This document shows positions 18,611 through 50,247 of a stretch of 64,000 nt of DNA, piece after piece. The notes beneath the pieces were generated by a model. The model searched no databases, was not told the origin of the DNA, and was given only the letters and a program-made list of their open reading frames with translations. How positions within the stretch are numbered: the first letter of the stretch is position 1; the number at the start of each line of letters is the position of its first letter. The stretch comes from Rhodovulum strictum (GTDB taxonomy: Bacteria > Pseudomonadota > Alphaproteobacteria > Rhodobacterales > Rhodobacteraceae). The stretch spans positions 248,001 to 312,000 of the forward strand of contig NZ_WJPO01000001.1 in NCBI RefSeq assembly GCF_009649175.1, given 5' to 3'. Both the position numbers and the translations under genes were made by a program.

Positions 18611-19303
18611 ATGGACAGCACACGCCTTCCCGGCGATCCCCCGCTCGAGATCGCGCTGCGCCGCTCGGCGCGGGCGCGGCGCTATTCGCTGCGCGTCTCG
18701 CAGCTTGACGGGCGGGTGACGCTGACCCTGCCCCGCCGCGCGCCGATCGCCGAGGGGCTGGCCTTCCTGCGCGAGAAGGAGGACTGGATTCGCGGCCACC
18801 TTGCGGCGCGCCCCGAGGATCACGCCGTCGCGCTTGGTGGCTCGGTGCCGTTCCGCGGTCGAGCGCTGCCCATCGTGGCCGGAACCGGCCGCGCGCCGCG
18901 GCTGATCGACGAGGCGCTGGCCGTGCCCGGCCCCGCGGCGGGCGTGGCGGGCCGGGTGCAGGCCTTTCTGCGGAGCGAGGCGCGCGCGGCACTGGCCGAG
19001 GCGGTGGACCGCCATGCAGGCGCGCTTGGCCGGCCCTATGGGCGGCTGACGCTGCGCGACACCCGCTCTCGCTGGGGATCCTGCACGTCGCGGGGGGATC
19101 TGATGTTTTCCTGGCGGCTGATCATGGCGCCGCCGCAGGTGCTGGATTACGTCGCCGCGCATGAGGTCGCGCATCTGGCCGAGATGAATCATTCCCCGGC
19201 CTACTGGGCCGTGGTGCGTCGGCTGATGCCCGACTATGCCGCGCCGCGGTCTTGGCTGCGCGCGAACGGGGCGGCGCTGCATCGGGTGCGCTTCGGCGAT
19301 TGA
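18611..19303 (+). CDS. YgjP-like (M48-related) metallopeptidase
   Basis: 230 residues of the YgjP/SprT-like DUF45 family. The zinc site is HEVAHLAEMNHSPAYW: His184, Glu185, His188 and a distal His194; the preceding DTRSRWGSCTSRGDLMFSWR is the family's second block. No signal peptide, so cytosolic. The physiological substrate is unknown. Start at ATG 18611 has GAGG 5 nt upstream; an in-frame ATG about 33 bp earlier is less likely. Divergent from the FYDLN gene. Confidence 0.88.
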   Translation: MDSTRLPGDPPLEIALRRSARARRYSLRVSQLDGRVTLTLPRRAPIAEGLAFLREKEDWIRGHLAARPEDHAVALGGSVPFRGRALPIVAGTGRAPRLIDEALAVPGPAAGVAGRVQAFLRSEARAALAEAVDRHAGALGRPYGRLTLRDTRSRWGSCTSRGDLMFSWRLIMAPPQVLDYVAAHEVAHLAEMNHSPAYWAVVRRLMPDYAAPRSWLRANGAALHRVRFGD

Positions 19304-19316
19304 CGTTTGACGCCGC

Positions 19317-19326
19317 CGTGATCACA
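19317..19326. promoter_or_regulatory. Single CGTGATCACA operator before the GntR/FCD gene
   Basis: Nine of ten bases match the palindrome TGTGATCACA found in pairs before sucC and sdhC. It ends 8 bp before the regulator's ATG, over the expected ribosome-binding/promoter region, and suggests autoregulation. By reading, I found no other copy of GTGATCAC outside these three loci. Confidence 0.5.
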
Positions 19327-19334
19327 GTCGTTCC

Positions 19335-19985
19335 ATGCTGATCCAGACCCGGCCGGGCGAGACGGGCACCGCGGCCCATGACCGGCTCTACCGCACGCTC
19401 AGAACCCAGATCATGCACGGGGAACTGACCCCCGGGGCAGCGCTGACGCTGCGCGGGATCGGGCGGCAATTCGGCGTGTCGATGACGCCTGCGCGCGAGG
19501 CGGTGCGCCGGCTGGTGGCCGAGGGGGCGCTGACCCTGTCCTCCTCGGGCCGGGTCGCGACGCCGGAACTGTCGAACGAGCGGATCGAGGAACTGGCCGC
19601 CCTGCGCGCCCTGCTGGAGCCGGAACTGGCCAGCCGCGCCCTGCCGCGCGCGCATATGGCGCTGATCGAGCGGATGCAGAAGATCAATGCCGAGATCGGC
19701 GAGACGGTGGCGCGCGGCGATGCGGTGGGCTTCATCCGCACCAATCTGGAGTTTCACCGCGCGCTTTACCTGCGCGCGCAGGCGCCCGCGATGCTGGCCA
19801 TGGCCGAAACCGTCTGGCTGCAACTCGGCCCCACCATGCGCGCGCTTTACGGGCGGCTCGGCCGGACCGAACCGCCGCAGCACCACCGGATGATCCTGGC
19901 GGCGCTGCGGGCGGGGGATGAACCCGCGCTGCGGCTGGCGATCCGGACCGATGTGACCCAGGGGCTGCGGATGCTGGCCACCTGA
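19335..19985 (+). CDS. GntR-family regulator with FCD ligand domain
   Basis: 216 residues. Residues 15-80 are a winged helix (GIGRQFGVSMTPAREAVRRL is the recognition segment); residues about 85-210 form an all-helical FCD domain that typically binds a metal and a small carboxylate (the NLEFHRALY and PPQHHRMI histidines fit the metal site). Carboxylate sensing suits its place next to lpd and the suc operon. A near-perfect copy of the palindrome seen before sucC and sdhC overlaps its translation start, so I infer it is the cognate regulator; this is untested. Convergent with lpd, 7 bp apart. Confidence 0.88.
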   Translation: MLIQTRPGETGTAAHDRLYRTLRTQIMHGELTPGAALTLRGIGRQFGVSMTPAREAVRRLVAEGALTLSSSGRVATPELSNERIEELAALRALLEPELASRALPRAHMALIERMQKINAEIGETVARGDAVGFIRTNLEFHRALYLRAQAPAMLAMAETVWLQLGPTMRALYGRLGRTEPPQHHRMILAALRAGDEPALRLAIRTDVTQGLRMLAT

Positions 19986-19992
19986 TCGGGGG

Positions 19993-21381
19993 CTAGCTGT
20001 GGATCGCCCCGTCGCCGCAGGCCAGCGCCGCCTCGCGCACCGCCTCGGAACAGGTCGGATGGGCGTGGCAGGTGCGGGCGAGGTCTTCGGCAGAGGCGCC
20101 GAATTCCATCGCGACGCAGATCTCGTGGATCAGCTCGCCCGCATTTGGGCCCAGGATATGGGCGCCGAGGATGCGGTCGGTCTGGGCATCGGCGAGGATC
20201 TTGACAAAGCCATCCGCGGCGAACATCGCCTTGGCCCGGCCATTGCCCATGAACGAGAACTTGCCGACCTTGTAGGCCCGGCCTGATTCCTTCAGGCTGT
20301 CCTCGGTCGCGCCGACCGCCGCCACTTCGGGCGCGGTATAGATCACGCCGGGGATGACCGCGTAATTCACATGGCCTTTTTGGCCCGCAAGGATCTCGGC
20401 CACCGCCATTCCCTCGTCCTCGGCCTTGTGGGCGAGCATGGGGCCCTCGATCGCGTCGCCGATGGCGTAAAGGCCGGGGACCGATGTGCGATAGTGCGGA
20501 TCAGTGGCGATCTGGCCGTGTTGGGTCAGCGCCACGCCCAGCGCATCAAGGCCCAGACCCTGGGTGAAGGGTTTGCGCCCCGTGGCCACCAGAACGGTAT
20601 CGGCATCCACCTGATGTTCGCTGTCATCCTTGCGCAGCCGGTAGGTGACCCTGGCCTTGGTCCTGAGCGCCTCGGCAGACTGGACGGCAGCGCCGGTGAT
20701 GATCTCGAGCCCCTGTTTCTTGAGCAGGGACCGGAAGCTGCGGGCGATTTCGCTGTCGAGCCCGGGGGTGATCTGGTCGAGATATTCCAGCACCGTCACC
20801 TGCGCGCCGAGACGGGCATAGACGGAGCCCAGTTCCAGCCCGATCACGCCTGCGCCGATCACGACCAGTTTCTTCGGGATCTTCGGCAAGCTGAGCGCGC
20901 CGGTCGAGGAGACGATCAGCTTCTCGTCGATCTCGACTCCGGGAATGGTGGCGGGTTCGGAACCTGTTGCGATCACGATGTTTTTCGCCTTGTGGGTCTC
21001 GTCGCCGACGGTGACCAGCCCGGGCTCGGGGATCGTGGCCCAGCCCTTGATCCAGTCCACCTTGTTCTTCTTGAACAGGAATTCGATGCCCTTGGTGTTC
21101 TGGGCGATGACCTCGTCCTTGTAGGCGAGCATCTGTTGCCAGTCGACCTTGGGGGGGGCGCCCTTGAGCCCCATCTTCTCGAAATTATGTTGCGATTCAT
21201 GGAGTTGGTGGGAGGCATGCAGCAGCGCCTTGGAGGGGATGCAGCCGACATTCAGGCAGGTGCCGCCCAGCGTCTCGCGGCCCTCGACGCAGGCGGTTTT
21301 CAGGCCCAGTTGGGCGCAGCGGATGGCGCAGACATAGCCGCCGGGGCCGGCGCCGATGATGATCACGTCATAGCTTGCCAT
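19993..21381 (-). CDS. lpd: Dihydrolipoyl dehydrogenase (E3 of 2-oxoglutarate dehydrogenase)
   Basis: 462 residues, FAD flavoprotein that reoxidises dihydrolipoyl groups with NAD+. The FAD motif [12 protein letters not shown], the redox disulfide [13 protein letters not shown], the NAD motif [19 protein letters not shown] and the C-terminal catalytic HAHPTCSEA are all present. The start at 21381 has AAGGAGAG close upstream; a longer frame exists without support. It is the last gene of the minus-strand mdh-suc row; the dispersed repeat copy B and the MAPEG gene lie upstream, so it may also have its own promoter. Confidence 0.96.
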
Positions 21382-21483
21382 TGGGCTCTCCTTTGCCGGA
21401 TCTGGCGATATGAATTCCGTATGATGCCCATATGAGATCCACATGAGCTTTTCGGGCCGGGGCAGGGGGGCTGTCTGCACCCC

Positions 21484-21533
21484 GCCGCGGCGCTGCCGCG
21501 GCCCCCCCCGAGGATATTTCCGGCCAGAAGAAG
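21484..21533 (-). repeat. Dispersed intergenic element, copy B (box plus hairpin)
   Basis: On the minus strand the box CTTCTTCTGGCC, GGA, AATATCC, TCGG (21508-21533) begins 1 nt after the MAPEG stop codon and is followed by a perfect 8-bp hairpin GCCGCGGC-AGC-GCCGCGGC (21484-21502). Same arrangement as copies A and C but with a different stem sequence. Confidence 0.8.
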
Positions 21534-21534
21534 A

Positions 21535-21930
21535 TCACAGCAGGGCTGCGAGCGTCATCAGGAGCGTGGCGAAGAACCCCACGGCCCAGAGGATCGACCG
21601 GCCGGGCACCCAGCCGCGGACATAGGCCGGGACATAGAGGATGCGGGCGCCGAGATAGGTGAAGGCGCAGATGGCGGTGAAGAGCGAGGACTGGCCCGAG
21701 AGGGTGACCAGCGCGGTGGCGGCGGTGAAGAGGATCAGCGCCTCGAAATGGTTGTTCAGCGCGCGTTGTAGCCGCGCGGTGCGCGGCGAGAGCGGCCGTT
21801 CGGGCGGCGTGTCGCGCGTGCCCGCGGTGTAGTTGGCGCCCAGTTCCATATTGGCGGGGATGGCCAGCAGGACAAGCTGGACCGCCTGGAGCAGGATGGC
21901 GAGGGCGAGGGCGGTGAGTTCGGGGGTCAT
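21535..21930 (-). CDS. MAPEG-family membrane protein
   Basis: 131 residues with four predicted membrane helices and the MAPEG pattern RALNNHFEALILFTAA followed by FTYLGARILYVPAYVRG. MAPEG relatives include glutathione transferases and eicosanoid enzymes, but bacterial members of this type are of unknown function. It lies inside the suc row between the AT-rich ORF and lpd, bounded by a palindromic repeat upstream and the box-hairpin element downstream, which suggests it is a later insertion into an ancestral sucB-lpd order (inference). Confidence 0.85.
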   Translation of the reverse strand: MTPELTALALAILLQAVQLVLLAIPANMELGANYTAGTRDTPPERPLSPRTARLQRALNNHFEALILFTAATALVTLSGQSSLFTAICAFTYLGARILYVPAYVRGWVPGRSILWAVGFFATLLMTLAALL

Positions 21931-21938
21931 TCCGTCGC

Positions 21939-22004
21939 GTCCCGGGCTTGACCCGGGACCTCCTGGTTCGGGGTGCGGGCGAGGCCCCGGATCAGGTCCG
22001 GGGC
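21939..22004. repeat. Two adjacent palindromes of the alphaproteobacterial REP-like type
   Basis: GTCCCGGG-CTTGA-CCCGGGAC (21939-21959) and GCCCCGGA-TCAGG-TCCGGGGC (21984-22004) are perfect 8-bp stems with 5-nt loops, spaced 24 bp apart. Similar paired palindromes are common between genes in alphaproteobacteria. They lie between the AT-rich ORF and the MAPEG gene. Confidence 0.75.
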
Positions 22005-22042
22005 GGGGTGAGACAAGTTAACAAAGGCGCTCGGCTTAACGG

Positions 22043-22447
22043 TCATCTTGCTTGAACGCCGTCCAGGACTGTCCAAACCCCAAATGAAAACGCTGCCAGA
22101 GAAATGGTTGCTAGACCAACGTAAGCTGGCACAACGAACCAGTCGGCAAGAGCGGATTTCCCAGTGTAGGGATTTGCAGTCAAAGCAACCAAGTAAGCAA
22201 CCGCGATATCCGCGAACGCAGATATTATGCCCGCAAGAAAGCAAAGCATGGAAAACTTGATTGCACTCAAGGGAACGGAGAATGCTGTCTGCGCTGTGGC
22301 ATTACCCAGGAAGGTTAGAAGAACAACGAAGGCGCCACTATTCAAAGTAATTAGCGCTTTGAGCGCAAAAATACCTATTTCACGCACAACCTGAATAGAC
22401 GCGCGGTACCATTCCGCTCGGACTTTTTCCTCTGTAATTTCTTCCAT
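22043..22447 (-). CDS. Small four-helix membrane protein, AT-rich, function unknown
   Basis: 134 residues. A charged N-terminus ([20 protein letters not shown]) precedes four likely membrane helices (about residues 25-45, 50-65, 70-90 and 105-125), with LITLNSGAFVVLLTFLGN in the first. I do not recognise the family. The DNA is visibly AT-rich against its neighbours, with AAA, TTT and ATT codons otherwise rare here, which indicates transfer. Its ATG shares one base with the sucB stop codon (TGATG); a GTG one codon earlier is also possible. It is therefore placed to be expressed by coupling to sucB. Confidence 0.75.
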   Translation of the reverse strand: MEEITEEKVRAEWYRASIQVVREIGIFALKALITLNSGAFVVLLTFLGNATAQTAFSVPLSAIKFSMLCFLAGIISAFADIAVAYLVALTANPYTGKSALADWFVVPAYVGLATISLAAFSFGVWTVLDGVQAR

Positions 22448-23955
22448 CACAAATCCATCAACAGCCTTCTCGGATCCTCCAGAGCCTCCTTCACGCGGAC
22501 GAGGAAGGTCACCGCCCCCTTGCCGTCGACGATGCGGTGGTCGTAGCTGAGCGCGAGGTACATCATCGGGCGGATGACGATCTGGCCGGCGACGACCACG
22601 GGGCGGTCCTGGATCTTGTGCATCCCCAGGATGCCCGATTGCGGCGGGTTGAGGATGGGCGAGGACATCAGCGAGCCGTAGACGCCGCCATTCGAGATGG
22701 TGAAGGTGCCGCCCTGCATCTCGGCCATGGACAGCTTGCCGTCGCGGGCGCGGATGCCGAGTTCGGCGATGCGTTTCTCGATCTCGGCGAAGCCCATGGC
22801 GTGGGCATTGCGCAGCACCGGCACGACGAGGCCCGAGGGCGTGCCGACGGCGATGCCCATATGGACGAATTGCTTGTAGACGATGTCGGTGCCGTCGATC
22901 TCGGCATTGACCTCGGGCACTTCGGCGAGCGCGTGGCAGCAGGCCTTGGTGAAGAAGGACATGAAGCCGAGTTTGACGCCGTGCTTCTTTTCGAACAGAT
23001 CCTTGTATTCCTTGCGCAGCGCCATGACGCCGGACATGTCGATCTCGTTATAGGTGGTCAGCATCGCCGCGCTGTTCTGCGCGTCCTTGAGCCGGCGCGC
23101 GATGGTCTGGCGCAGGCGGGTCATGCGCACCCGTTCCTCGCGCGCGGCATCCTCGGCGGGGATGGGGGCGCGGGCGGCGTCGGGGGCGGGTCTGGGCGGT
23201 TCGGCGGGTCTGGGGGCGGGTTTCGGGGCCTCGGCGGCGCGCATGACATCCTCTTTCATGATGCGGCCGTCGCGGCCGGAGCCGGTCACGGCATCGGGGG
23301 AGAGGCCCTTTTCGGCCATCAGTTTCTTCGCCGAGGGGGCGTGTTCGATATCCTTGCCGGTGGTCGGGGCGGGCGCTTCGGCGGGTTCGGGGGCGGGTTT
23401 GGGCGCGGGGGATGCGGCGGCGCCTTCGCCCGCGATCAGGGTGGCCAGTCGGGCGCCCGCGGCAACGGTGGCGCCTTCGGCGGCGAGGATCGCGCCCAGG
23501 GTTCCGGCGGCAGGCGCCGGCACCTCGACCGAGACCTTGTCGGTTTCCAGTTCGCACAGGATCTCGTCCCGCTCGACATGGTCGCCCGGGGCCTTGAACC
23601 AGGTCGAGACGGTCGCCTCGGCCACGCTTTCGCCGAGCGTGGGGACCATGACGGCGATTTCCTGCGCGGCGGGCGCGGGGGCGGAGGCAGCGGCGGGGCT
23701 GCGGGCGGCCTTGGCAGCGGCCTCGACGATGGTGGCGAGAAGGGCATCGACCGAGACGGTCTCGCCCTCCGGCGCCACGATCTCGCCGAGCGTTCCGGCG
23801 GTGGGCGCGGGCACCTCGACCGTTACCTTGTCGGTTTCCAGTTCGCACAGCATCTCGTCAGCGGCGACGGCATCGCCGGGTTTCTTGAACCAGGTGGCGA
23901 CGGTGGCTTCGGTGACGCTTTCGCCCAGGGTGGGCACACGGACTTCTGTGGACAT
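22447..23955 (-). CDS. sucB: Dihydrolipoyl succinyltransferase (E2 of 2-oxoglutarate dehydrogenase), two lipoyl domains
   Basis: 502 residues, core of the complex that turns 2-oxoglutarate into succinyl-CoA. Two successive lipoyl domains are visible, each with the ELETDKV turn (lipoyl-lysines Lys43 and Lys140), joined by Ala/Pro-rich linkers; then an E3-binding domain ([20 protein letters not shown]) and the catalytic domain ending in [13 protein letters not shown]. Enteric SucB has a single lipoyl domain. The start at 23955 lies 4 bp after the sucA stop. The downstream AT-rich ORF begins on its stop codon. Confidence 0.96.
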
Positions 23956-23959
23956 GGGA

Positions 23960-26929
23960 TCACCCTTCGATGGTGAGCGCGTCGTTGACGAGCGCGGCTT
24001 GCTGGGCCTTGTGCTGGCTGGCGAGCCCGGTGGCGGGCGAGGCGGCGGCGGGGCGGCCCGCATAGCGCGGGCGGTGGTGCTTCGCGTCGATGCGCGTCAG
24101 CACCCATTCGAGATTGGGCTCGATGAAGGTCCAGGCGCCCTGGTTCTTGGGCTCTTCCTGGCACCAGACGATTTCGGCGTCGTGGAAGCGTTCCAGTTCC
24201 TTGACCAGGCTGAGCGCGGGGAAGGGATAGAACTGTTCGAGCCGCAGGAGATAGACATCGTCCAGTCCGCGGGCGTCGCGTTCTTCCAGCAGGTCATAAT
24301 AGACCTTTCCCGAGCAGATCACGACGCGGCGGATTTCGGAATCGGGTTTCAGCTTGACCTGCGCATTGCCATGTTCGGCGTCGTCCCAGAGCACGCGGTG
24401 GAAGGAAGATCCGGTCAGGAATTCGCTGGCTTCGGACACTGCAAGCCGATGGCGCAACAGCGATTTCGGCGTCATCAGGATCAGCGGCTTGCGGAAGCTG
24501 CGGTGAAGCTGCCGGCGCAGGATGTGGAAGTAATTGGCGGGCGTCGAGCAATTGGCGACGATCCAGTTATCCTCGGCCGAGAGTTGCAGGAAGCGTTCCA
24601 GACGGGCGGAACTGTGTTCCGGGCCCTGCCCCTCAAACCCGTGGGGCAGCAGGACGACAAGGCCCGACATGCGCAGCCATTTGCGTTCGCCGGAACTGAT
24701 GAACTGGTCGAACATGATCTGCGCGCCATTGGCGAAATCGCCGAATTGCGCCTCCCACATCACCAGCGCATTGGGTTCGGCCAGCGAATAGCCGTATTCG
24801 AAGCCCAGAACCGCATATTCCGACAGCATCGAGTCGATGACGTCGTATTTCGCCTGGCCCTTGCGGATATGGTTCAGCGGGAAATACCGTTCCTCGGTGT
24901 TCTGGTCGATCAGCGCGGAATGGCGTTGCGAGAACGTGCCGCGGATCGAATCCTGGCCTGCCAGACGCACGGGGTAACCTTCGGTCAGCAGGCTGCCGAA
25001 GGCCAGCGCCTCGGCCGTGGCCCAGTCAAAGCCCTTGCCAGAATTGAACATTTCGCGCTTTGCGTCAAGCAGCCGACCCACCGTCTTGTGCAGGTCGAAG
25101 CCCTGCGGCACCAGCGTCAGCGCCTGGCCGATTTCCTGCATCGTCTCTTCCGAGATCGCGGTTTCGCCGCGCTGGTATTCGTCGCCGCCGCCGCGCTTGA
25201 TATGCGACCAGCGGCCATCCAGCCAGTCTGCCTTGTTCGGCTTGTAGTCCCTGCCGGCGTCGAATTCCTCGTTCAGATGCGACTGGAACGCGGCCTTCAT
25301 GTCCTCGATCTCGCCTTCGGGGATCAGCCCGTCGGCGACCAGACGTTCGGTATAGAGTTGCAGCGTCGATTTGTGCTTCTTGATCTTCTGATACATCAGG
25401 GGATTGGTGAACATCGGTTCATCCCCCTCGTTATGGCCGAAGCGGCGATAGCAGAACATGTCGATGACCACGTCCTTGCTGAATTTCTGGCGGAATTCGG
25501 TGGCCACCTTGGCGGCATGGACCACCGCCTCGGGATCGTCGCCATTGACGTGGAAGATCGGCGCCTCGACCATCAGCGCGATATCGGTGGGATAGGGCGA
25601 GGAGCGGCTGAAATGCGGCGCGGTGGTGAAGCCGATCTGGTTGTTCACCACGATATGGATCGTCCCGCCGGTGCGGTGGCCCACCAGCCCCGACATGCCG
25701 AAACATTCGGCCACGACGCCCTGACCGGCAAAGGCCGCATCGCCATGCAGCAGCAGCGGCAGCACGGTCTTGCGCTCGCGGTCACCCGCCTGTTCCTGCT
25801 TGGCGCGCGTCTTGCCCAGCACCACGGGGTTCACCGCCTCCAGGTGGCTGGGATTGGCGGTCAGCGACAGGTGGACGATATTGCCGTCGAATTCGCGGTC
25901 CGAGCTGGCGCCGAGGTGGTATTTCACATCGCCCGAACCGTCGACATCCTCGGGTTTGAAGCTGCCGCCCTGGAATTCGTGAAAGATCGCGCGATAGGGC
26001 TTGCCCATCACATTGGCCAGCACGCTGAGCCGCCCCCGGTGCGGCATGCCGATGGCGATTTCCTTGACCCCCAGCGCACCGCCGCGCTTGATGATCTGTT
26101 CCATCGCCGGGATCAGCGCCTCGCCGCCGTCAAGGCCGAACCGCTTGGTGCCCATGTACTTGACATGCAGGAACTTCTCGAAGCCCTCGGCCTCGACCAG
26201 CTTGTTCAGGATCGCGCGGCGGCCTTCGCGGGTGAACTTGATTTCCTTGCCGTACCCCTCGATCCGTTCCTTCAGCCAGGCGGATTGCTCGGGGTCGGAA
26301 ATATGCATGTATTGCAGCGCGAAGGTGCCGCAATAGGTGCGCTGCACGATGGCCAGGATCTCGCGGATCGAGGCGACCTGAAGCCCCAGCACGTTGTCGA
26401 TGAACACCGGCCGGTCCATGTCGGCATCGGTAAAGCCGTAGGAACCGGGGTCAAGCTCGGGATGGGGGGTGTCGTTGCGCAGCCCCAGCGGATCAAGATC
26501 GGCAACCAGATGGCCGCGGATGCGGTAGGCGCGGATCAGCATCAGCGCGCGGATCGAGTCGAGCACCGCGCGTTTCACCTCGTCATCGGTGACCTTGACG
26601 CCCTGTGCCTCGGCCTTCTCGCGGATCTTCACCTCGGCGGCGCGGGCCTCGCTGACCGGGGGCAGGCCGGGCCATTGGCCATCCAGCGCCGCCGTCAGGT
26701 CGTCATTGGGCGCGGGCGGCCAGTCGCGGCGCGCCCAGCTTGGCCCTGCCGCCTCGCGCTTGACCGAAACCTCGTCATCGCCGAGATCGGCGAAGAAGCG
26801 GCGCCATTGCTCGTCGACATTGTCGGGGTCATTGGCGTAGCGGGCGTAAAGCTGTTCCACATACTCGGCATTGTGCCCTTGCAGGAAGGACGAGGCGTGG
26901 AAGGTGGAATTGGGGCTCTGCTCGGTCAT
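23960..26929 (-). CDS. sucA: 2-oxoglutarate dehydrogenase E1
   Basis: 989 residues, thiamine-diphosphate enzyme that decarboxylates 2-oxoglutarate and succinylates the E2 lipoyl groups. The N-terminal E2-binding segment reads [38 protein letters not shown] and the ThDP region [18 protein letters not shown] are diagnostic. The N-terminal [18 protein letters not shown] matches other alphaproteobacterial SucA proteins. Full length, no defect seen. Order sucC-sucD-sucA-sucB is the usual one here; a 74-bp gap separates it from sucD. Confidence 0.97.
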
Positions 26930-27003
26930 GGGATCCTCCCTCGGGGGTCGTGCGCTGTCCGGCCTGGGGGTTCCCGCCCCGCGGCCGGACGCAGGTCTTC
27001 AGC

Positions 27004-27888
27004 TCATGCCTTCATCGCGGCCAGCACCGCCTCGCCCAGGCGGGCGGGGCTGTCGGCCACGACGACACCAGCGGCTTTCATCGCGTCGATCTTGTCCTCG
27101 GCGCCGCCCTTGCCGCCCGCGACGATGGCACCCGCATGGCCCATCCGCCTGCCCGGAGGCGCGGTGCGGCCCGCGATGAAGCCCGCGACGGGTTTCCTGC
27201 GGCCCTTCTTGGCTTCGTCCCGCAGGAACTGGGCGGCTTCCTCCTCGGCCGAGCCGCCGATCTCGCCGATCATGATGATCGCCTCGGTCTCGTCATCGGC
27301 CAGGAACCATTCCAGCACGTCGATATGCTCGGTCCCCTTGATCGGGTCGCCGCCGATGCCGACGCAGGTGGATTGGCCGAGCCCGACATCGGTGGTCTGC
27401 TTGACCGCCTCGTAGGTCAGCGTGCCCGAGCGGGAGACCACGCCCACCTTGCCGCGGCGGTGGATATGGCCGGGCATGATGCCGATCTTGCAGGCGCCGG
27501 GGGTGATGACGCCGGGGCAGTTCGGCCCGATCAGGATCGAGTCCGAGCCCGCCAGCGCGCGCTTGACCGTCATCATGTCGAGCACCGGGATGCCTTCGGT
27601 GATGCAGACGATCAGCGGAATCTTCGCGTCGATGGCCTCCAGGATCGAATCCGCGGCAAAGGGCGGGGGCACATAGATCACCGTGGCATTTGCACCGGTC
27701 TTGGCCACCGCCTCGTGGCAGGAATCGAAGACCGGCAGGTCGAGATGCTTCTGGCCCCCTTTGCCCGGCGTCACGCCGCCGACCATGCGGGTTCCGTAGG
27801 CGATGGCCTGTTCGGAGTGGAAGGTGCCCTGCGATCCGGTGAAGCCCTGGCAGATCACCTTGGTGTTTTCGTCAACGAGAACGGCCAT
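27004..27888 (-). CDS. sucD: Succinyl-CoA synthetase, alpha subunit
   Basis: 294 residues. The alpha subunit binds CoA and carries the phosphorylated histidine, here in [10 protein letters not shown] near residue 249. CoA-binding segments [15 protein letters not shown] and [11 protein letters not shown] are intact. It forms the ADP/GDP-dependent enzyme with SucC, whose stop codon lies 5 bp away, and yields succinate for the Sdh complex encoded 5-10 kb further on. Confidence 0.97.
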
Positions 27889-27893
27889 TCGCC

Positions 27894-29087
27894 TTACCCC
27901 TTCACCGCTTTGACAATCTTTTCCGCCGCATCCGACAGGTCGTCCGCCGCGATCACGTCGAGGCCGGAGGTGTTGAGGATGTCCTTGCCCTTCTCGACAT
28001 TGGTGCCTTCGAGGCGGACCACCAGCGGCACTTTCAGGCCGACCTCGCGGACGGCTTCGACCACGCCTTCGGCGATCACGTCGCAGCGCATGATGCCGCC
28101 GAAGATGTTCACCAGGATCCCCTTCACGTTCGGGTCCGAGGTGATGATCTTGAACGCTTCGGTCACCTTCTCGCGGGTGGCGCCGCCGCCCACGTCGAGG
28201 AAGTTGGCCGGTTCCGCACCGTAAAGCTTGATGATGTCCATGGTCGCCATGGCCAGGCCCGCGCCGTTGACCATGCAGCCGATCTCGCCATCGAGCGCGA
28301 TGTAGTTCAGGTCGTGCTTGGAGGCGGCAAGTTCCTTGGGGTCTTCCTCGGTCTCGTCGCGCAGGGCGAGGATGTCGTCATGGCGGTACAGCGCGTTCGA
28401 GTCGAAGCCCATCTTGGCGTCGAGGCATTTCAGATCGCCCTCGTCGCTGACGATCAGCGGGTTGATCTCGATCATCTCGCAATCCTTGTCGAGGAACAGC
28501 TTGTAAAGCTGGCCCAGAAGGGTCGAGCATTGCTTGATCTGCTTGCCTTCGAGCCCGAGGGAAAAGGCGACGCGGCGGCCGTGCCAGGGCTGGTAGCCGG
28601 TCACGGGGTCGATGGTGAAGGACAGGATGCGCTCGGGCGTCTTTGCCGCCACTTCCTCGATGTCCATGCCGCCCTCGGTCGAGCAGACAACGGCGATGCG
28701 GCTCGACTGCCGGTCGACCAGCAGCGCAAGGTAAAGCTCGCGCGCGATTTCCGAGCCGTCCTCGAAATAGACGCGGCCGACCTGCTTGCCGACCGGGCCG
28801 GTCTGGTGGGTGACAAGCGTGCGGCCCAGCATCTTGCGCGCTTCCTCGGCGGCCTCGCCGACCGAGCGGGCCAGACGCACGCCGCCCTTCTCGCCCGCCT
28901 CGGACTCGATGAAGCGGCCCTTGCCGCGGCCGCCGGCGTGGATCTGCGCCTTGACCACCCAGAGCGGGCCGTCAAGTTCGCCCGCGATGGTCTTGGCCTC
29001 TTCGGCGCGGGTGACCACATGGCCTTTCGACACCGGTACGCCATAGCTGCGCAGAAGGGCCTTGGCCTGGTATTCGTGGATGTTCAT
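27894..29087 (-). CDS. sucC: Succinyl-CoA synthetase, beta subunit
   Basis: 397 residues. An ATP-grasp domain at the N-terminus ([31 protein letters not shown]) sets nucleotide binding, and the C-terminal [20 protein letters not shown] region contacts SucD. The start is ATG 29087, with a GTG one codon upstream as the alternative. The 157-bp gap to mdh holds a perfect 14-bp inverted repeat made of two TGTGATCACA palindromes, so sucCDAB probably has its own regulated promoter in addition to read-through from mdh. Confidence 0.97.
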
Positions 29088-29190
29088 CACGCTGTCCCAT
29101 GCTGATGCGTTTTGTCGCCTCTAAGCATGGAACGGGTCGTCGCGAAACGGTTTTCGGTCGGGGGCGGCGGGATTTCGCGAAGTTTTCGGT

Positions 29191-29227
29191 GTTTGTGATC
29201 ACACCTTGGAAAAGTGTGATCACAAAC
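29191..29227. promoter_or_regulatory. Paired TGTGATCACA operators upstream of sucC
   Basis: Two exact copies of the palindrome TGTGATCACA (29194-29203 and 29215-29224) have centres 21 bp apart, two helical turns. With flanks they form a perfect 14-bp inverted repeat (29191-29204 / 29214-29227). The pair lies 107-137 bp before the sucC ATG. The same pair with the same 21-bp spacing precedes sdhC. A terminator is less likely because the arms are AT-rich and no U-tract follows. Confidence 0.75.
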
Positions 29228-29244
29228 TGTTTTTCGTCCGGCCG

Positions 29245-30740
<1,496 letters not shown>

Positions 30741-30928
30741 GGGCAAGGCTCCGTTCGGGATGGCTGTCGGCGCCGAACCTGCCGGGGAAAGCGCAACAAA
30801 GCCTGAGGGCAGCGCGCGCTGCTCTGCATCGCAGCGCAAGATTTTTCTGCGGCGCGGCGAAATGGGGGTTGCGGAATATGTCCCCGTTATGGTGATTGGC
30901 GCAACAAAATGACCCGAGGGGAGAATCA

Positions 30929-31789
30929 ATGGACCCGCGTGCCCGCCCGTTCCGTTCCGTTCTCTACATCCCGGCCTCCAAGGCACGTGCGCTGGAAAAG
31001 GCCCGGACGCTGCCGGCCGATGCGATCATCTTCGATCTCGAGGATGCCGTCGCCCCCGAGGAAAAGCGCGCCGCCCGCGACCTGCTGGCCGAGGCGCTGC
31101 GCGAGGGCGGCTATGGCGCGCGCTTCCTGATCGTACGCGTCAATGGGCTGGACAGCGAATGGGGCGCCGATGACGTGGCTGCGATGCGCGGTGTCGGTGC
31201 CGATGCGATCTTGCTGCCCAAGGTCGAGACCACGGCGCAACTGGATGCGCTGGGCGATGCGATTCCGGGGGTGGGTCTCTGGGCGATGATCGAGACGCCG
31301 CGCGGCGTGCTGAACGCCCCGGCGCTGGCCGCACATCCCCGCGTCGGCGGTTTCGTGATGGGCACCAACGATCTGGCCAAGGAACTGGGCTGCCGCACCC
31401 GGTCGGACCGGCTGGCGCTGATCGCGAGCCTCAGCCAGTGCCTGCTGGCCGCGCGCGCCCATGGGATCGTGGCCATCGACGGGGTCTACAATGCCTTCCG
31501 CCACGAGGAAGGGCTGTGGGCGGAATGCGAGCAGGGGCGCGATCTGGGCTTTGACGGCAAGAGCCTGATCCATCCCGACCAGATCGCCATCGCCAATGCC
31601 ACCTTCGCGCCCACCTCCGAAGAGATCGAACTGTCGCGCCGCCAGATCGCCGCTTTCGACGAGGCGCGCAAGCGAGGGCTGGGCATCGCCGTTGTGGATG
31701 GCCGCATCGTCGAGAATCTGCATATCGTCACGGCACGGAAGACGCTCGCCAAGGCGGCGGCGATCGCGCAACTGGAGGCCGTTTCATGA
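30929..31789 (+). CDS. mcl2: (3S)-malyl-CoA thioesterase (CitE/HpcH family)
   Basis: 286 residues of the citrate-lyase-beta fold: PFRSVLYIPASKARALEKA, the metal/substrate motif FDLEDAVAPEEKRAAR, and LLPKVETTAQLDAL. In R. sphaeroides the paralogue between mdh and mesaconyl-CoA hydratase is Mcl2, a thioesterase that releases malate from (3S)-malyl-CoA; the lyase Mcl1 is encoded elsewhere. Gene order and the short length support the thioesterase here, but the two activities cannot be separated by eye. ATG 30929 has GGGGAG 6 nt upstream. It overlaps nnrU by 4 bp (ATGA). Confidence 0.85.
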   Translation: MDPRARPFRSVLYIPASKARALEKARTLPADAIIFDLEDAVAPEEKRAARDLLAEALREGGYGARFLIVRVNGLDSEWGADDVAAMRGVGADAILLPKVETTAQLDALGDAIPGVGLWAMIETPRGVLNAPALAAHPRVGGFVMGTNDLAKELGCRTRSDRLALIASLSQCLLAARAHGIVAIDGVYNAFRHEEGLWAECEQGRDLGFDGKSLIHPDQIAIANATFAPTSEEIELSRRQIAAFDEARKRGLGIAVVDGRIVENLHIVTARKTLAKAAAIAQLEAVS

Positions 31790-32355
31790 CCCTGCTTATC
31801 CTCGGAGTTCTGCTCTGGAGCTTTGCCCATCTGTTCAAGCGGCTGTTCCCCGGCCCGCGTGCCGCGCTGGACGATCGCTTCGGCGCGGCCTCCAAGGCGT
31901 TCTTTGCCGTGCCGCTGGTGCTGTCGGTGGTGCTGATGGTGATGGGCTATCGCGGCAATACCGCCCCCGACATCTATCAGACGCCCGGTTTCATGGTGCA
32001 TCTGAACAACACGCTGATGCTGCTGGCCGTGGTGTTCTTCGGTGTCGGCAACTCGAAAAGCCGGGCGCGGCAATTGTTCCGCCACCCGATGCTTTACGGC
32101 GTGATGACTTGGTCGGTGGCGCATCTGCTGGTGAACGGCGATCTGGCGTCCATCGTGCTGTTCGGCGGTCTGCTGGTCTGGGCGATTGCCGAGGTGGTGC
32201 TGATCAACGCGAAGGAGCCGGTCACGACCTGGCGCGGCGGCAGCCTGGGGGGTGACATCAAGCTGGGGTTGATCTCGATCCTGCTCTACCTGGTGATCCT
32301 GTGGGTGCATAACTGGCTGGGCGCCTGGCCCCTGCCGGTGCCGGGCGCGGCCTGA
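31786..32355 (+). CDS. NnrU-family membrane protein
   Basis: 189 residues with five or six membrane helices and the NnrU pattern: LLWSFAHLFKRLFPGPRAAL near the N-terminus, RHPMLYGVMTWSVAHLLVNGD in the middle. The family is named after a gene near nitrite/nitric oxide reductases, but most members are not tied to denitrification and their function is unknown. Coupled by ATGA overlap to mcl2 and by TGATG to the following small gene. Confidence 0.88.
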   Translation: MTLLILGVLLWSFAHLFKRLFPGPRAALDDRFGAASKAFFAVPLVLSVVLMVMGYRGNTAPDIYQTPGFMVHLNNTLMLLAVVFFGVGNSKSRARQLFRHPMLYGVMTWSVAHLLVNGDLASIVLFGGLLVWAIAEVVLINAKEPVTTWRGGSLGGDIKLGLISILLYLVILWVHNWLGAWPLPVPGAA

Positions 32356-32558
32356 TGCGGGCCTATCGTCTGCTGACCGAAGAGGATACCGCCGCCTTCT
32401 GCCACAAGGTGACAGAGGCGCTGTCCAAGGGCTGGGAACTGTACGGCTCGCCCGCCTATGCGCATGACCCGGCGACGGGCAGGATGCGCTGCGCGCAAGC
32501 CGTGGTGAAGGATGTGCCGGGGCTCTACGCCCCGGACGTGAAGCTGGGAGAGTTGTAA
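32355..32558 (+). CDS. DUF1737 small protein
   Basis: 67 residues. YRLLTEEDTAAFCHKVTEAL followed by SKGWELYGSPAYAHD and AQAVVK is the DUF1737 pattern. Function unknown. Its ATG shares a base with the nnrU stop, and mch starts 4 bp after it, so mcl2-nnrU-DUF1737-mch are surely cotranscribed. Confidence 0.88.
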   Translation: MRAYRLLTEEDTAAFCHKVTEALSKGWELYGSPAYAHDPATGRMRCAQAVVKDVPGLYAPDVKLGEL

Positions 32559-32562
32559 GGTC

Positions 32563-33597
32563 ATGGTCAAGACCAACCCGGGGCGTTTCTTCGAGGATTA
32601 TCACGTCGGTCAGGTGATCGCGCATGCCGTGCCGCGCACCCTGTCGGGCGGCGAGCGGGCGCTGTATCATGCGCTTTATCCGGCGCGGCACGCGCTTTAT
32701 TCCTCGGATGCCTTTGCGCAATCCTGCGGGCTGCCCGCCGCGCCGATGGACGACCTGATCGCGTTCCATACCGTCTTTGGCAAGACCGTGCCCGATATCA
32801 GCCTGAACGCCATCGCCAATCTGGGCTATGCCGAGGGGCGCTGGCACCGGCCGGTCTGGCCCGGCGACACGCTGCGTTCGGAATCCGAGGTGATCGGGCT
32901 CAAGGAAAACTCGAACGGCAAGTCGGGTGTGGTCTGGGTGCGCACGCGGGGGCTGAACCAGCGCGGCGAACTGGTGATGGACTATGTCCGTTGGGTGATG
33001 GTGCGCAAGCGCGATGCCGCAGCACCCGCGCCCGAAACCGTGGTGCCGGTGCTGGCGGATTCGGTTGCGCCGAATGATCTGGTGCTGCCCGAGGGGCTGG
33101 ATTTCACGGATTACGATTTCACACTGGCGGGCGACCCGCATCGCTGGGGCGATTACGCGGTGGGCGAGATCATCGACCATGTGGACGGCGTGACGGTCGA
33201 GGAGGCCGAACACATGCTGGCCACGCGGCTGTGGCAGAACACCGCCAAGGTGCATTTCGACGCGACCGTGCGCGAGGATGGGCGGCGGCTGATCTATGGT
33301 GGCCATGTCATAAGCCTGGCGCGGACCTTGTCCTTCAACGGTCTGGCCAATGCGCAGATGATCGTGGGTCTGAACGCGGGCGCCCATGCCAATCCCTGCT
33401 TTGCCGGCGACACCGTTCGCGCCTGGTCCCAGGTGCTGGACAAGGCCGAGACGGCCGCCCCCGGGGTCGGCGCGCTGCGGCTGCGGCTGGTCGCGGTCAA
33501 GTCGGGCGGCGTTCCGGGCGCGTTGCGCGGTGAGGACGGGAAATACCTGCCCGATGTCCTGCTCGACCTCGACTACTGGGCGTTGATCCCGATCTGA
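32563..33597 (+). CDS. mch: Mesaconyl-CoA hydratase (beta-methylmalyl-CoA dehydratase)
   Basis: 344 residues with two MaoC-like hotdog halves: residues 1-150 (GRFFEDYHVGQVIAHAVPRT) and 165-344 (VGEIIDHVDGVTVEEAEHM, FAGDTVRAWSQVLDKAE). It interconverts mesaconyl-C1-CoA and (2R,3S)-beta-methylmalyl-CoA in the ethylmalonyl-CoA pathway of acetate assimilation. Clustering with the malyl-CoA thioesterase gene and the TCA genes matches R. sphaeroides. Last gene of its operon: only 16 bp separate its stop from the sdhC operator pair. Confidence 0.93.
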   Translation: MVKTNPGRFFEDYHVGQVIAHAVPRTLSGGERALYHALYPARHALYSSDAFAQSCGLPAAPMDDLIAFHTVFGKTVPDISLNAIANLGYAEGRWHRPVWPGDTLRSESEVIGLKENSNGKSGVVWVRTRGLNQRGELVMDYVRWVMVRKRDAAAPAPETVVPVLADSVAPNDLVLPEGLDFTDYDFTLAGDPHRWGDYAVGEIIDHVDGVTVEEAEHMLATRLWQNTAKVHFDATVREDGRRLIYGGHVISLARTLSFNGLANAQMIVGLNAGAHANPCFAGDTVRAWSQVLDKAETAAPGVGALRLRLVAVKSGGVPGALRGEDGKYLPDVLLDLDYWALIPI

Positions 33598-33613
33598 GGG
33601 TCGGCTGCCGGGT

Positions 33614-33644
33614 TGTGATCACAGTGCTGCGGCATGTGATCACA
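33614..33644. promoter_or_regulatory. Paired TGTGATCACA operators upstream of sdhC
   Basis: Two exact TGTGATCACA palindromes (33614-33623 and 33635-33644) with centres 21 bp apart, the same spacing as before sucC; the 11-nt spacers differ in sequence, so the pair is conserved and not simply duplicated. They end 122 bp before the sdhC ATG, well upstream of the candidate -35, a position suiting an activator. Confidence 0.75.
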
Positions 33645-33701
33645 AAGCCCGGTTTTTTCCCCGGAGCGACAAAAAATTCCGCCCCGATCCCGGCGCAAGC
33701 C

Positions 33702-33729
33702 GTGACAAGGGCGCAGAAACCGTTATCAG
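33702..33729 (+). promoter_or_regulatory. Candidate sdhC promoter
   Basis: GTGACA (33702-33707) and TATCAG (33724-33729) are 16 bp apart, about 35-40 bp before sdhC. A fair but not strong sigma-70 match. Confidence 0.3.
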
Positions 33730-33766: not shown

Positions 33767-34150
33767 ATGGCTCATTTCAACCGCGGTAACCGGCCGCTTT
33801 CGCCGCATATCCAGATCTACCGCCCGCAGATCACGTCCGTCACCTCGATCCTGACCCGGGTGACCGGCAATGCGCTGATCGTGGCGACGATCCTGATCGT
33901 GTGGTGGTTTCTGGCCGCGGCCAAGGGCCCCGAGGCCTTTGCCCGTGCCGATTGGGTGCTGACCTCGTGGTTCGGCAATCTGGTGCTGTTCCTGTCGCTC
34001 TGGGCGCTGTGGTATCACACGCTGGCGGGCATCCGGCACCTGATCTGGGATACCGGGCGGGGGCTGGAACTGAAGACGGCCGAGATGCTGGGCTGGGCCG
34101 TGATCGGCGGTTCGGCGGTGCTGACCGTGCTGACCGTTCTGGTCGTCTGA
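33767..34150 (+). CDS. sdhC: Succinate dehydrogenase cytochrome b556 subunit
   Basis: 127 residues, three membrane helices. RPLSPHIQIYRPQITSVTSI is the quinone-site N-terminal block of the family and the heme-b histidine lies in WYHTLAGIRHLIWD. It anchors SdhAB to the membrane and passes electrons to ubiquinone. First gene of sdhCDAB. Confidence 0.95.
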   Translation: MAHFNRGNRPLSPHIQIYRPQITSVTSILTRVTGNALIVATILIVWWFLAAAKGPEAFARADWVLTSWFGNLVLFLSLWALWYHTLAGIRHLIWDTGRGLELKTAEMLGWAVIGGSAVLTVLTVLVV

Positions 34151-48834: not shown

Positions 48835-48838
48835 GGTG

Positions 48839-49399
48839 ATGAAGAAACTCGCAGTTGCTGTCAGCCTTGCGGCCAGCCCCGCCTTCGCCGCATCGGGTCC
48901 GTTCTTCTCGTTCTACAACACCGATTTCGTGGTGCTGGTGTCGTTCCTCGCCTTTGTCGGCGTGCTGGTCTACCTCAAGGTGCCGGGCAAGCTGGCGGGG
49001 ATGCTCGACAAGCGTGCCGCCAACATCCAGAACGATCTGGACGAGGCGCGCGCCCTGCGCGAGGAGGCCCAGTCGGTTCTGGCCTCGTATGAGCGCAAGC
49101 AGAAAGAGGTTCAGGAGCAGGCCGAGCGCATCATTGCGACCGCCCGCACCGAGGCCGAGGCGGCCGCCGCCAAGGCCAAGGACGACCTGAAGGCCACGAT
49201 CGAGCGCCGTCTTGCCGCCGCCGATGAACAGATCGAGTCGGCCAAGGCCGGTGCCGTGCGCGAGGTGCGCGACCGGGCGATCGCCGTGGCCGTGGCCGCT
49301 GCGCGCGAGGTGGTGGCCCGTCAGATGACCGATGCCACCAATGACCGGCTGGTTGACGCCGCTATCGGCGATGTGCAGGCCAAGCTGACGTTGCACTGA
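48839..49399 (+). CDS. atpF: ATP synthase F0 subunit b
   Basis: 186 residues. The first 18 residues (MKKLAVAVSLAASPAFAA) look like a cleavable signal peptide, then a membrane helix (YNTDFVVLVSFLAFVGVLVY) and a long stalk helix. A GTG one codon earlier is the alternative start. Whether the N-terminal segment is processed is unknown. Last gene of the F0 operon and followed by the best terminator in the window. Confidence 0.94.
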   Translation: MKKLAVAVSLAASPAFAASGPFFSFYNTDFVVLVSFLAFVGVLVYLKVPGKLAGMLDKRAANIQNDLDEARALREEAQSVLASYERKQKEVQEQAERIIATARTEAEAAAAKAKDDLKATIERRLAAADEQIESAKAGAVREVRDRAIAVAVAAAREVVARQMTDATNDRLVDAAIGDVQAKLTLH

Positions 49400-49476: not shown

Positions 49477-50247
49477 TCAGCCGCGGCCAGCCACCTGTTC
49501 CAGCCGTTGCCGGGCAATGGCCTCGTTGCGCTCGGATTGCAGGTGGTCGGACAGCGCGGTTTCGACATAGCTAAGATGCCGTTCCACCGCGGCGCGGGCG
49601 CCCGGCGCGTCGCGGGCCTGCAACGCCGCGTTGATCGCGCGGTGCTGATCCAGCAGCATCGCCCGCGTGGTGCGCTGGCTGAACATGATCTGGCGGTTGT
49701 AGAACACGCCTGCGCGCAACAGATCGAACATGGCGCGCATCACATGCAGCATGACCAGGTTGTGGCTGGCCTCGATGATGGCGATGTGGAACTCGGCATC
49801 CAGCCGGGCTTCGTCGGCGGGGTTGCGCTTTTCATGCGCGGCCTCCATCCGGCGAAAGATCGCGTCGATCACCGCCAGATCGGTGTCCGAGCCGCGACGG
49901 GCGGCGCGTTCGGCCGCCATCGCCTCGATGTCGCGGCGAAAGGCGATGTAGTCGAACAGCGCCTCGTCATGGCGGGCGAAAAGCTGCACCAGCGCCTCGG
50001 GGAAGGCGGCGCCCAGCACTTCGGCCACGAACAGACCCGCGCCGGGGCGGCTGACCAGCAGCCCGCGATCCTGCAACTCGGCGATGGCTTCGCGCAGCGA
50101 GGGGCGCGAGACGCCCAGCCGCTCGGCCAGATCGCGTTCCGAGGGCAGCCGTTCGCCCGGGCGCAGGATGCCGCGCAGGATCAGAAGCTCGATCTGGCGC
50201 ACGACGGCGCCCGACAGCTTCTCGGGGTGAACCTTCTGGAAGGGCAT
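49477..50247 (-). CDS. FadR/PdhR-type GntR regulator with FCD domain
   Basis: 256 residues. Winged helix with LSGAVVRQIELLILRGILRP, RLPSERDLAERLGVSRPSLR and EAIAELQDRGLLVSRPGAG, then an FCD domain (about 95-235) with metal-site histidines in EFHIAIIEASHN and VERHLSYVE. The pattern is that of PdhR/LldR, sensors of pyruvate or lactate; the true ligand is unknown. A palindrome CGGTCA-N7-TGACCG lies 18 bp before the start, fitting autoregulation. No metabolic gene is adjacent. Confidence 0.9.
   Translation of the reverse strand: MPFQKVHPEKLSGAVVRQIELLILRGILRPGERLPSERDLAERLGVSRPSLREAIAELQDRGLLVSRPGAGLFVAEVLGAAFPEALVQLFARHDEALFDYIAFRRDIEAMAAERAARRGSDTDLAVIDAIFRRMEAAHEKRNPADEARLDAEFHIAIIEASHNLVMLHVMRAMFDLLRAGVFYNRQIMFSQRTTRAMLLDQHRAINAALQARDAPGARAAVERHLSYVETALSDHLQSERNEAIARQRLEQVAGRG

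Follow-up and report, generated by a model that had tools for sequence, protein, structure and literature searches.

A conserved promoter geometry of paired, probable AkgR sites upstream of sucCDAB and sdhCDAB in Rhodovulum strictum and other Rhodobacteraceae

The closest described system to the one reported here is the AkgR regulon of R. sphaeroides 2.4.1, whose regulator we take to be the product of RSP_0981, the gene that a 2015 paper on AkgR reportedly names so. Passages of PMC4344238 predict that RSP_0981, a GntR protein, regulates sucCD, sdh (RSP_0974-6) and the 2-oxoglutarate dehydrogenase genes, and a part of PMC6365646 describes AkgR as an activator with GTGATCAC among its sites. In the present study, a 64,000-nt stretch of the Rhodovulum strictum genome (contig NZ_WJPO01000001.1, positions 248,001 to 312,000; hereafter the window, in which coordinates are given) was analyzed for the palindrome TGTGATCACA, which has GTGATCAC as its core and lies in pairs before two operons of the tricarboxylic acid (TCA) cycle and, as a near-exact single copy, before a gene for a GntR/FCD regulator. 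This gene is an orthologue of akgR (RSP_0981 by position), and AkgR very probably controls sucCDAB and sdhCDAB here via the paired sites. Because the regulator, the motif and the targets had been published, the AkgR regulon is already known and Rhodovulum strictum adds a new member to it, and the idea of a new regulon is not supported. What is added is a comparative result on promoter geometry, and a palindrome that looked like an orphan is now tied to a named regulator.

A pattern search of the window located four exact copies of TGTGATCACA at 29194, 29215, 33614 and 33635 (mean 0.02 in 100 shuffles) and a 9/10 copy, CGTGATCACA, at 19317, all as originally predicted. The first two form the sucC pair, with the operators proximal (29194..29203) and distal (29215..29224) to sucC situated between mdh and sucC, both minus-strand genes, while the other two, distal (33614..33623) and proximal (33635..33644), form the sdhC pair, 122 nt upstream of the sdhC ATG. 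In both pairs the centres are exactly 21 bp apart, with spacers of 11 nt, CCTTGGAAAAG and GTGCTGCGGCA, that bear no relation to each other, and the 9/10 copy (19317..19326) ends 8 nt upstream of the ATG of the GntR/FCD gene at 19335, again in agreement with the original prediction. The absence of any further TGTGATCACA from the window was also confirmed, and it holds for the whole 3,825,097-base genome (reversed control pattern, 0), in which the 10-mer is not scattered but found at the sucC and sdhC pairs only. The core GTGATCAC has 45 copies in the genome, and inside the window it occurs just at the five places named above. The 40 other copies, 31 in a clear coding frame and nine in none, are all unpaired, two pairs being listed for this genome, and none of them has both the flanking T and A, with six having one of the two (four the T and two the A). 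The genome therefore has six further 9/10 copies of TGTGATCACA whose core is intact, and for three of these the coding frame is clear. Of the operon genes, lpd, sucB, sucA, sucD, sucC, mdh and sdhA were identified via NCBIfam, with sucC, the first gene of sucCDAB, at 27894..29087 on the minus strand (the open reading frame tool begins it at an earlier GTG at 29090), while sdhC (33767..34150, plus strand), sdhD and sdhB were identified solely from their position and the order of the tblastn matches in R. sphaeroides.

The GntR/FCD gene (19335..19985, plus strand) encodes a protein of 216 aa (P0001) with an N-terminal GntR winged helix and a C-terminal FCD domain, both above the Pfam cut-off. 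Its orthologue in R. sphaeroides 2.4.1 (2740310-2739669) is 79% identical, and ygjP adjoins the gene in both genomes. Since this orthologue is the sole GntR-domain gene between 2.223 and 2.798 Mb and lies just past sdhB, at 0.75 kb, the locus tag RSP_0981 was given to it, by position and not from a record; likewise, our genome G051 was inferred to be R. sphaeroides 2.4.1, since two motifs given in a part of PMC4344238 fall inside the peak coordinates given there. The original prediction had named the neighbouring GntR/FCD protein as the regulator and AkgR as an alternative to it, and because the window gene is orthologous to RSP_0981, these two proposals are both supported and concern the same protein. 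The GntR protein of Rhodovulum tesquicola is identical over all 216 residues, and the DNA upstream of its gene differs. FCD proteins usually carry an Asp-His-His-His metal site, and since some of them do not, the FCD membership of AkgR is based on the domain match. The metal-ligand places of AkgR, positioned by hand, read N137, H141, H184 and D206 and are invariant in 117 of 117 aligned relatives; the Asp-His-His-His pattern was not found in this hand alignment to the usual pattern, which hints that the metal site is unusual or absent. Four FCD genes are present in the genome, two of them in the window. The second window gene (49477-50247, minus strand) is PdhR/LldR/GlcC-like but below all curated NCBIfam cut-offs, and an ATP-synthase b-subunit gene (48836-49399) adjoins it.

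The distribution of akgR and of the pairs, defined as two GTGATCAC with a 2-32-nt gap, was then surveyed in 248 Rhodobacteraceae genomes, one per genus. At least one pair was found in 223 genera (442 pairs in total; the reversed control pattern in one genome), and a close akgR in 222. Gene and pair occurred together in 219 genera, the gene only in three, the pair only in four and neither in 22 (Fisher 2e-24), and the corresponding numbers were 194, 2, 2 and 17 in the 215 genomes of good quality (completeness ≥90%, contamination ≤5%; Fisher 4e-21), although both Fisher values treat genera as independent, which they are not. Pairs were thus absent in 22 of the 26 genera without akgR vs. three of the 222 with it. 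The threshold for akgR presence, E ≤1e-75, was chosen after the data, with 1.3e-80 the weakest match accepted and 1.6e-61 the strongest rejected; when the genes of G122 (51% identical, genome 76% complete, no pair) and G033 (46% identical, one pair) are counted as orthologues, the table becomes 220, 4, 3 and 21. Among the three gene-only genera, one (G040) keeps the sdhC pair with one mismatch, in another (G155) the contig ends 403 bases before sdhA, and the third (G147) is 73% complete, with sdhA not found. Loss of the motif in relatives that keep the gene, which the original prediction had named as a sign against it, was therefore confined, for exact pairs, to these three of 222 genera.

On a tree of sdhA with 55 rows, the 22 rows without akgR require 14 changes, at least eight of which are forced by well-supported branches. 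On a stricter tree of 48 rows, which omits seven rows as incomplete or uncertain, the 15 rows that lost both gene and pairs require nine changes, at least five being forced by well-supported branches. The gene and the pairs are lost together, and their joint loss in at least five lineages indicates that, very probably, AkgR alone reads the palindrome. Beyond the family, a pair at an 11-14-nt gap was present in five of 380 genomes of the class vs. all five family members that this draw included. Three non-family genomes (G261, G393 and G623; L314, L315 and L323) carry operator-like pairs whose gaps measure 13-14 nt. In two genera that lost the pairs (G109 and G157), akgR is left only as broken pieces.

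The spacing of the palindromes was proposed to be selected, and this is supported across the family, as the centres are exactly 21 bp apart in 354 of the 442 pairs; among the other pairs listed, 20 bp was the commonest spacing. The context was inspected for 109 distinct pair sequences, and 54 lie before sucC, 53 before sdhC, one before fumC and one beside mdh with no sucC found. In R. sphaeroides, 21-bp pairs likewise precede sucC (2729961) and sdhC (2734765). The fumC case is a third 21-bp pair of its genome (G042, L301 1000-1029), about 125 nt upstream of a class II fumarase gene, which is partial and below the full-length cut-off for class II fumarate hydratase. One genome (G135) carries six pairs with 2-32-nt gaps, three at 21-bp centres, of which only the sdhC pair was seen in context.

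Between the pairs and the genes, a conserved GTGACW followed 16 nt on by TANNAM, resembling -35 and -10 elements, was found upstream of sdhC (n = 53). In the window, these are a putative -35, GTGACA (33702..33707, plus strand; GTGACW conserved in 46 of 53 contexts), and a putative -10, TATCAG (33724..33729, plus strand; spacer 16), with T at 89% and A at 87% of the column profile at the same spacing. The sdhC -35 starts 57-60 nt past the pair end in 38 of 46 contexts, a count that excludes the seven of 53 without TGAC at offsets 40-90, and the remaining eight, with offsets of 48, 48, 68, 69, 70, 78, 78 and 79, are shifted by one or two helical turns. The chance of such exceptions was 6e-6 for nine and 9e-5 for seven (the actual number is eight), assuming an independence that relatives do not have. 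For sucC, a conserved TT at offset 47-48 after the pair (85% and 81% of 54), about one turn closer than the sdhC -35, gives the putative -35 TTTCGC (29142..29147, minus strand), placed by hand from the column profile, and a putative extended -10, TG-C-TTAGAG (29119..29124, minus strand), was read by hand and is weakly conserved. The pairs leave the core promoter untouched: from their end to the putative -35 there are about 46 nt at sucC and 57-60 nt at sdhC.

Both promoter sets show A/T maxima close to offsets 10, 21, 31 and 41 in the stretch that separates the pair from the core promoter. These maxima keep the register of the operators, since not one of 3000 rotation nulls reached the signal, whether for sucC (n = 54) or for sdhC (n = 53). 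The A/T profile places these tracts at 29148..29194 before sucC (minus strand, about 10-bp phase) and at 33644..33701 before sdhC (plus strand, about 10.5-bp phase). In sliding windows, the sdhC period signal was 0.15, compared with a flat 0.05 in 17 sdhC upstream regions without akgR. The shuffled control for the A/T period was a plain base permutation, and both the period and the helical steps were tested on the very sequences in which they had been spotted. Judged from these elements, transcription would start at about offset 83 (sucC) and 93 (sdhC) after the pair. If these putative starts are right, the proximal operators centre near -87 (sucC) and -97 (sdhC) and the A/T peaks fall near -42, -52, -62 and -72, a region in which the polymerase alpha subunit docks.

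The site at akgR itself differs in being single and close to the gene. The best 80 of 539 named relatives were compared, and in 68 of them GTGATCAC immediately precedes the start of akgR. Within these 68, 54 have their first in-frame start codon 8 or 9 nt past the site, and 62 have a TTGAC that begins 17-20 nt ahead of it. In the window, the corresponding putative -35 is TTGACG (19300..19305, plus strand). Given its position relative to the start codon and TTGAC, the auto-site lies over the region where the -10 and the start are expected, and the akgR message is probably leaderless or nearly so. The self-regulation proposed for the GntR/FCD protein is supported by this conservation, though not for R. 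sphaeroides, and akgR autoregulation should therefore not be judged from that species, which has no auto-site. The auto-site is also retained in Paracoccus denitrificans, where a large second replicon carries akgR and, in the 40 kb inspected, these TCA genes do not accompany it. The ygjP-like gene ends within the putative akgR -35, which contains its TGA stop codon.

Taken as a whole, the best explanation, which we hold with good confidence, is that the palindromes are AkgR operators, at which the protein is predicted to activate from the upstream pairs and to repress its own gene. Two AkgR dimers would occupy the two palindromes of each pair, perhaps cooperatively, upstream of sucCDAB and sdhCDAB; the palindromes are two helical turns apart and so lie on the same DNA face. 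From there, about 85-120 bp before the putative starts, AkgR would activate both promoters, much as a class I activator does, and the phased A/T tracts may curve the DNA or give the alpha subunit of RNA polymerase places to dock. At akgR, a single dimer would cover the putative core promoter and thereby cause repression. A TCA-related ligand is predicted for AkgR. A broader proposal is made only tentatively, as we give it slightly less than even odds: Rhodobacteraceae may share a composite AkgR promoter module, nearly confined to the family, in which two operators two turns apart are joined to the core promoter by A/T tracts phased in their register. The DNA would thereby be wrapped toward RNA polymerase or present its alpha subunit with a ladder of docking places, AkgR being at the far end. 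Such a module would be gained or lost whole with the regulator and could be placed before a new TCA gene, as at fumC in one genus, while AkgR would shut its own leaderless gene via the single core-promoter site, a loop lost in R. sphaeroides. The pair geometry, i.e., the 21-bp spacing, the A/T phase and the helical steps, was not found described in the literature searched, to which the 2015 AkgR paper did not belong, and the 10-mer TGTGATCACA as a search word gave no relevant paper as judged by title. The geometry turns a target list into a testable activation arrangement for a member of the GntR/FCD family, which is better known for repression.

Several results weigh against this explanation. 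Four genera have exact pairs but no close akgR; two of them are incomplete (G096, 77%; G033, 74%), with G033 carrying a 46%-identical gene on the same contig, and in G019 the best match was 39% and no sdhA was recovered, but G114 is called 100% complete with a best match of 36%. The sdhC pair was not found within two mismatches in five of 30 akgR-bearing genomes examined, and the loss label is somewhat clustered on the sdhA tree, only four of 500 shuffles being as low, so that lineages rather than genera are to be counted. At the promoters, a coding control also has a hump, weaker at 0.09, at a period near 10.5-11, the best A/T period at sucC is 9.75 bp, below the helical repeat, the sucC -10 is weak, and a strict promoter scanner gave no sigma-70 match before sdhC in the window. 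R. sphaeroides 2.4.1 has no auto-site upstream of akgR. Strengthening of promoters after akgR loss, which might be expected if AkgR were the essential activator, was considered and rejected, as the mean best score was 8.18 in the 17 regions without akgR and 8.18 in the 34 others.

This last comparison, which gives no sign of a lost activator, would suit a reading in which AkgR binds but the pairs repress, or act either way depending on ligand, as would the facts that many FCD regulators are repressors and that the sites at akgR overlap the putative core promoter. We regard it as unlikely, because the pairs end well before the putative -35, by the distances given above, and the helical steps and phased A/T tracts fit activation, though repression by looping depends on phase too; the available part of PMC6365646 also terms AkgR an activator. 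A binding protein other than AkgR appears much less probable still. The half-sites TGTGA and TCACA resemble those of CRP-like proteins, but these require a 6-bp gap (TGTGA-N6-TCACA), whereas the half-sites here abut without any. Three further FCD genes exist in the genome, and the PdhR-like one at 49477-50247 was considered but not favoured, because the auto-site, the position and the co-loss all point to the gene at 19335; the co-loss, which tracks akgR, was run on akgR alone among the FCD genes. CceR, put forward in the original prediction as a known regulator that might act at these sites, is predicted at mdh and sdh of R. sphaeroides in a passage of PMC4344238, but no box of the form given there, [AGT]GTT-N6-8-AAC[ACT], was present in the three promoter regions of the window, and its role here was not borne out.

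Finally, the sucC stretch folds well as a single strand (z -5.4), and the pair might thus be taken for an RNA or DNA hairpin, e.g., a terminator or processing site after mdh. This was rejected, its probability being negligible: each site is palindromic alone, so that pairing is expected of any two of them, the mdh strand has no T-run after the sites, like pairs stand before sdhC and fumC in other flanks, and the spacing is fixed, as is the register relative to the core promoter.

Compared with known systems, the arrangement resembles class I activation, as by CRP at lac or with the UP elements at rrn, in that upstream sites share the helix face of the core promoter and A/T minor grooves recur at about each turn between them; it differs in that AkgR is an FCD protein on paired palindromes, for which the contact with polymerase is a prediction. 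The nearest solved structure by sequence is that of another FCD regulator, McbR of Escherichia coli (PDB 4p9f, E 3e-23), which has low identity to AkgR and a different known role. The deoxyribonate regulator PS417_07240 of Pseudomonas simiae, a GntR protein, is likewise proposed to use the GTGATCAC palindrome, but according to the same part of PMC6365646 it serves another pathway from a single site at -47 to -40, and it is 32% identical to AkgR. The closest system is the AkgR (RSP_0981) regulon of R. sphaeroides 2.4.1, which shares with Rhodovulum strictum the orthologous regulator (79%), the GTGATCAC core, the two 21-bp pairs and target operons matching those predicted in passages of PMC4344238, whereas akgR lies about 0.75 kb past sdhB there but adjoins lpd in Rhodovulum strictum, where it also carries the auto-site over its putative promoter that R. 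sphaeroides lacks.

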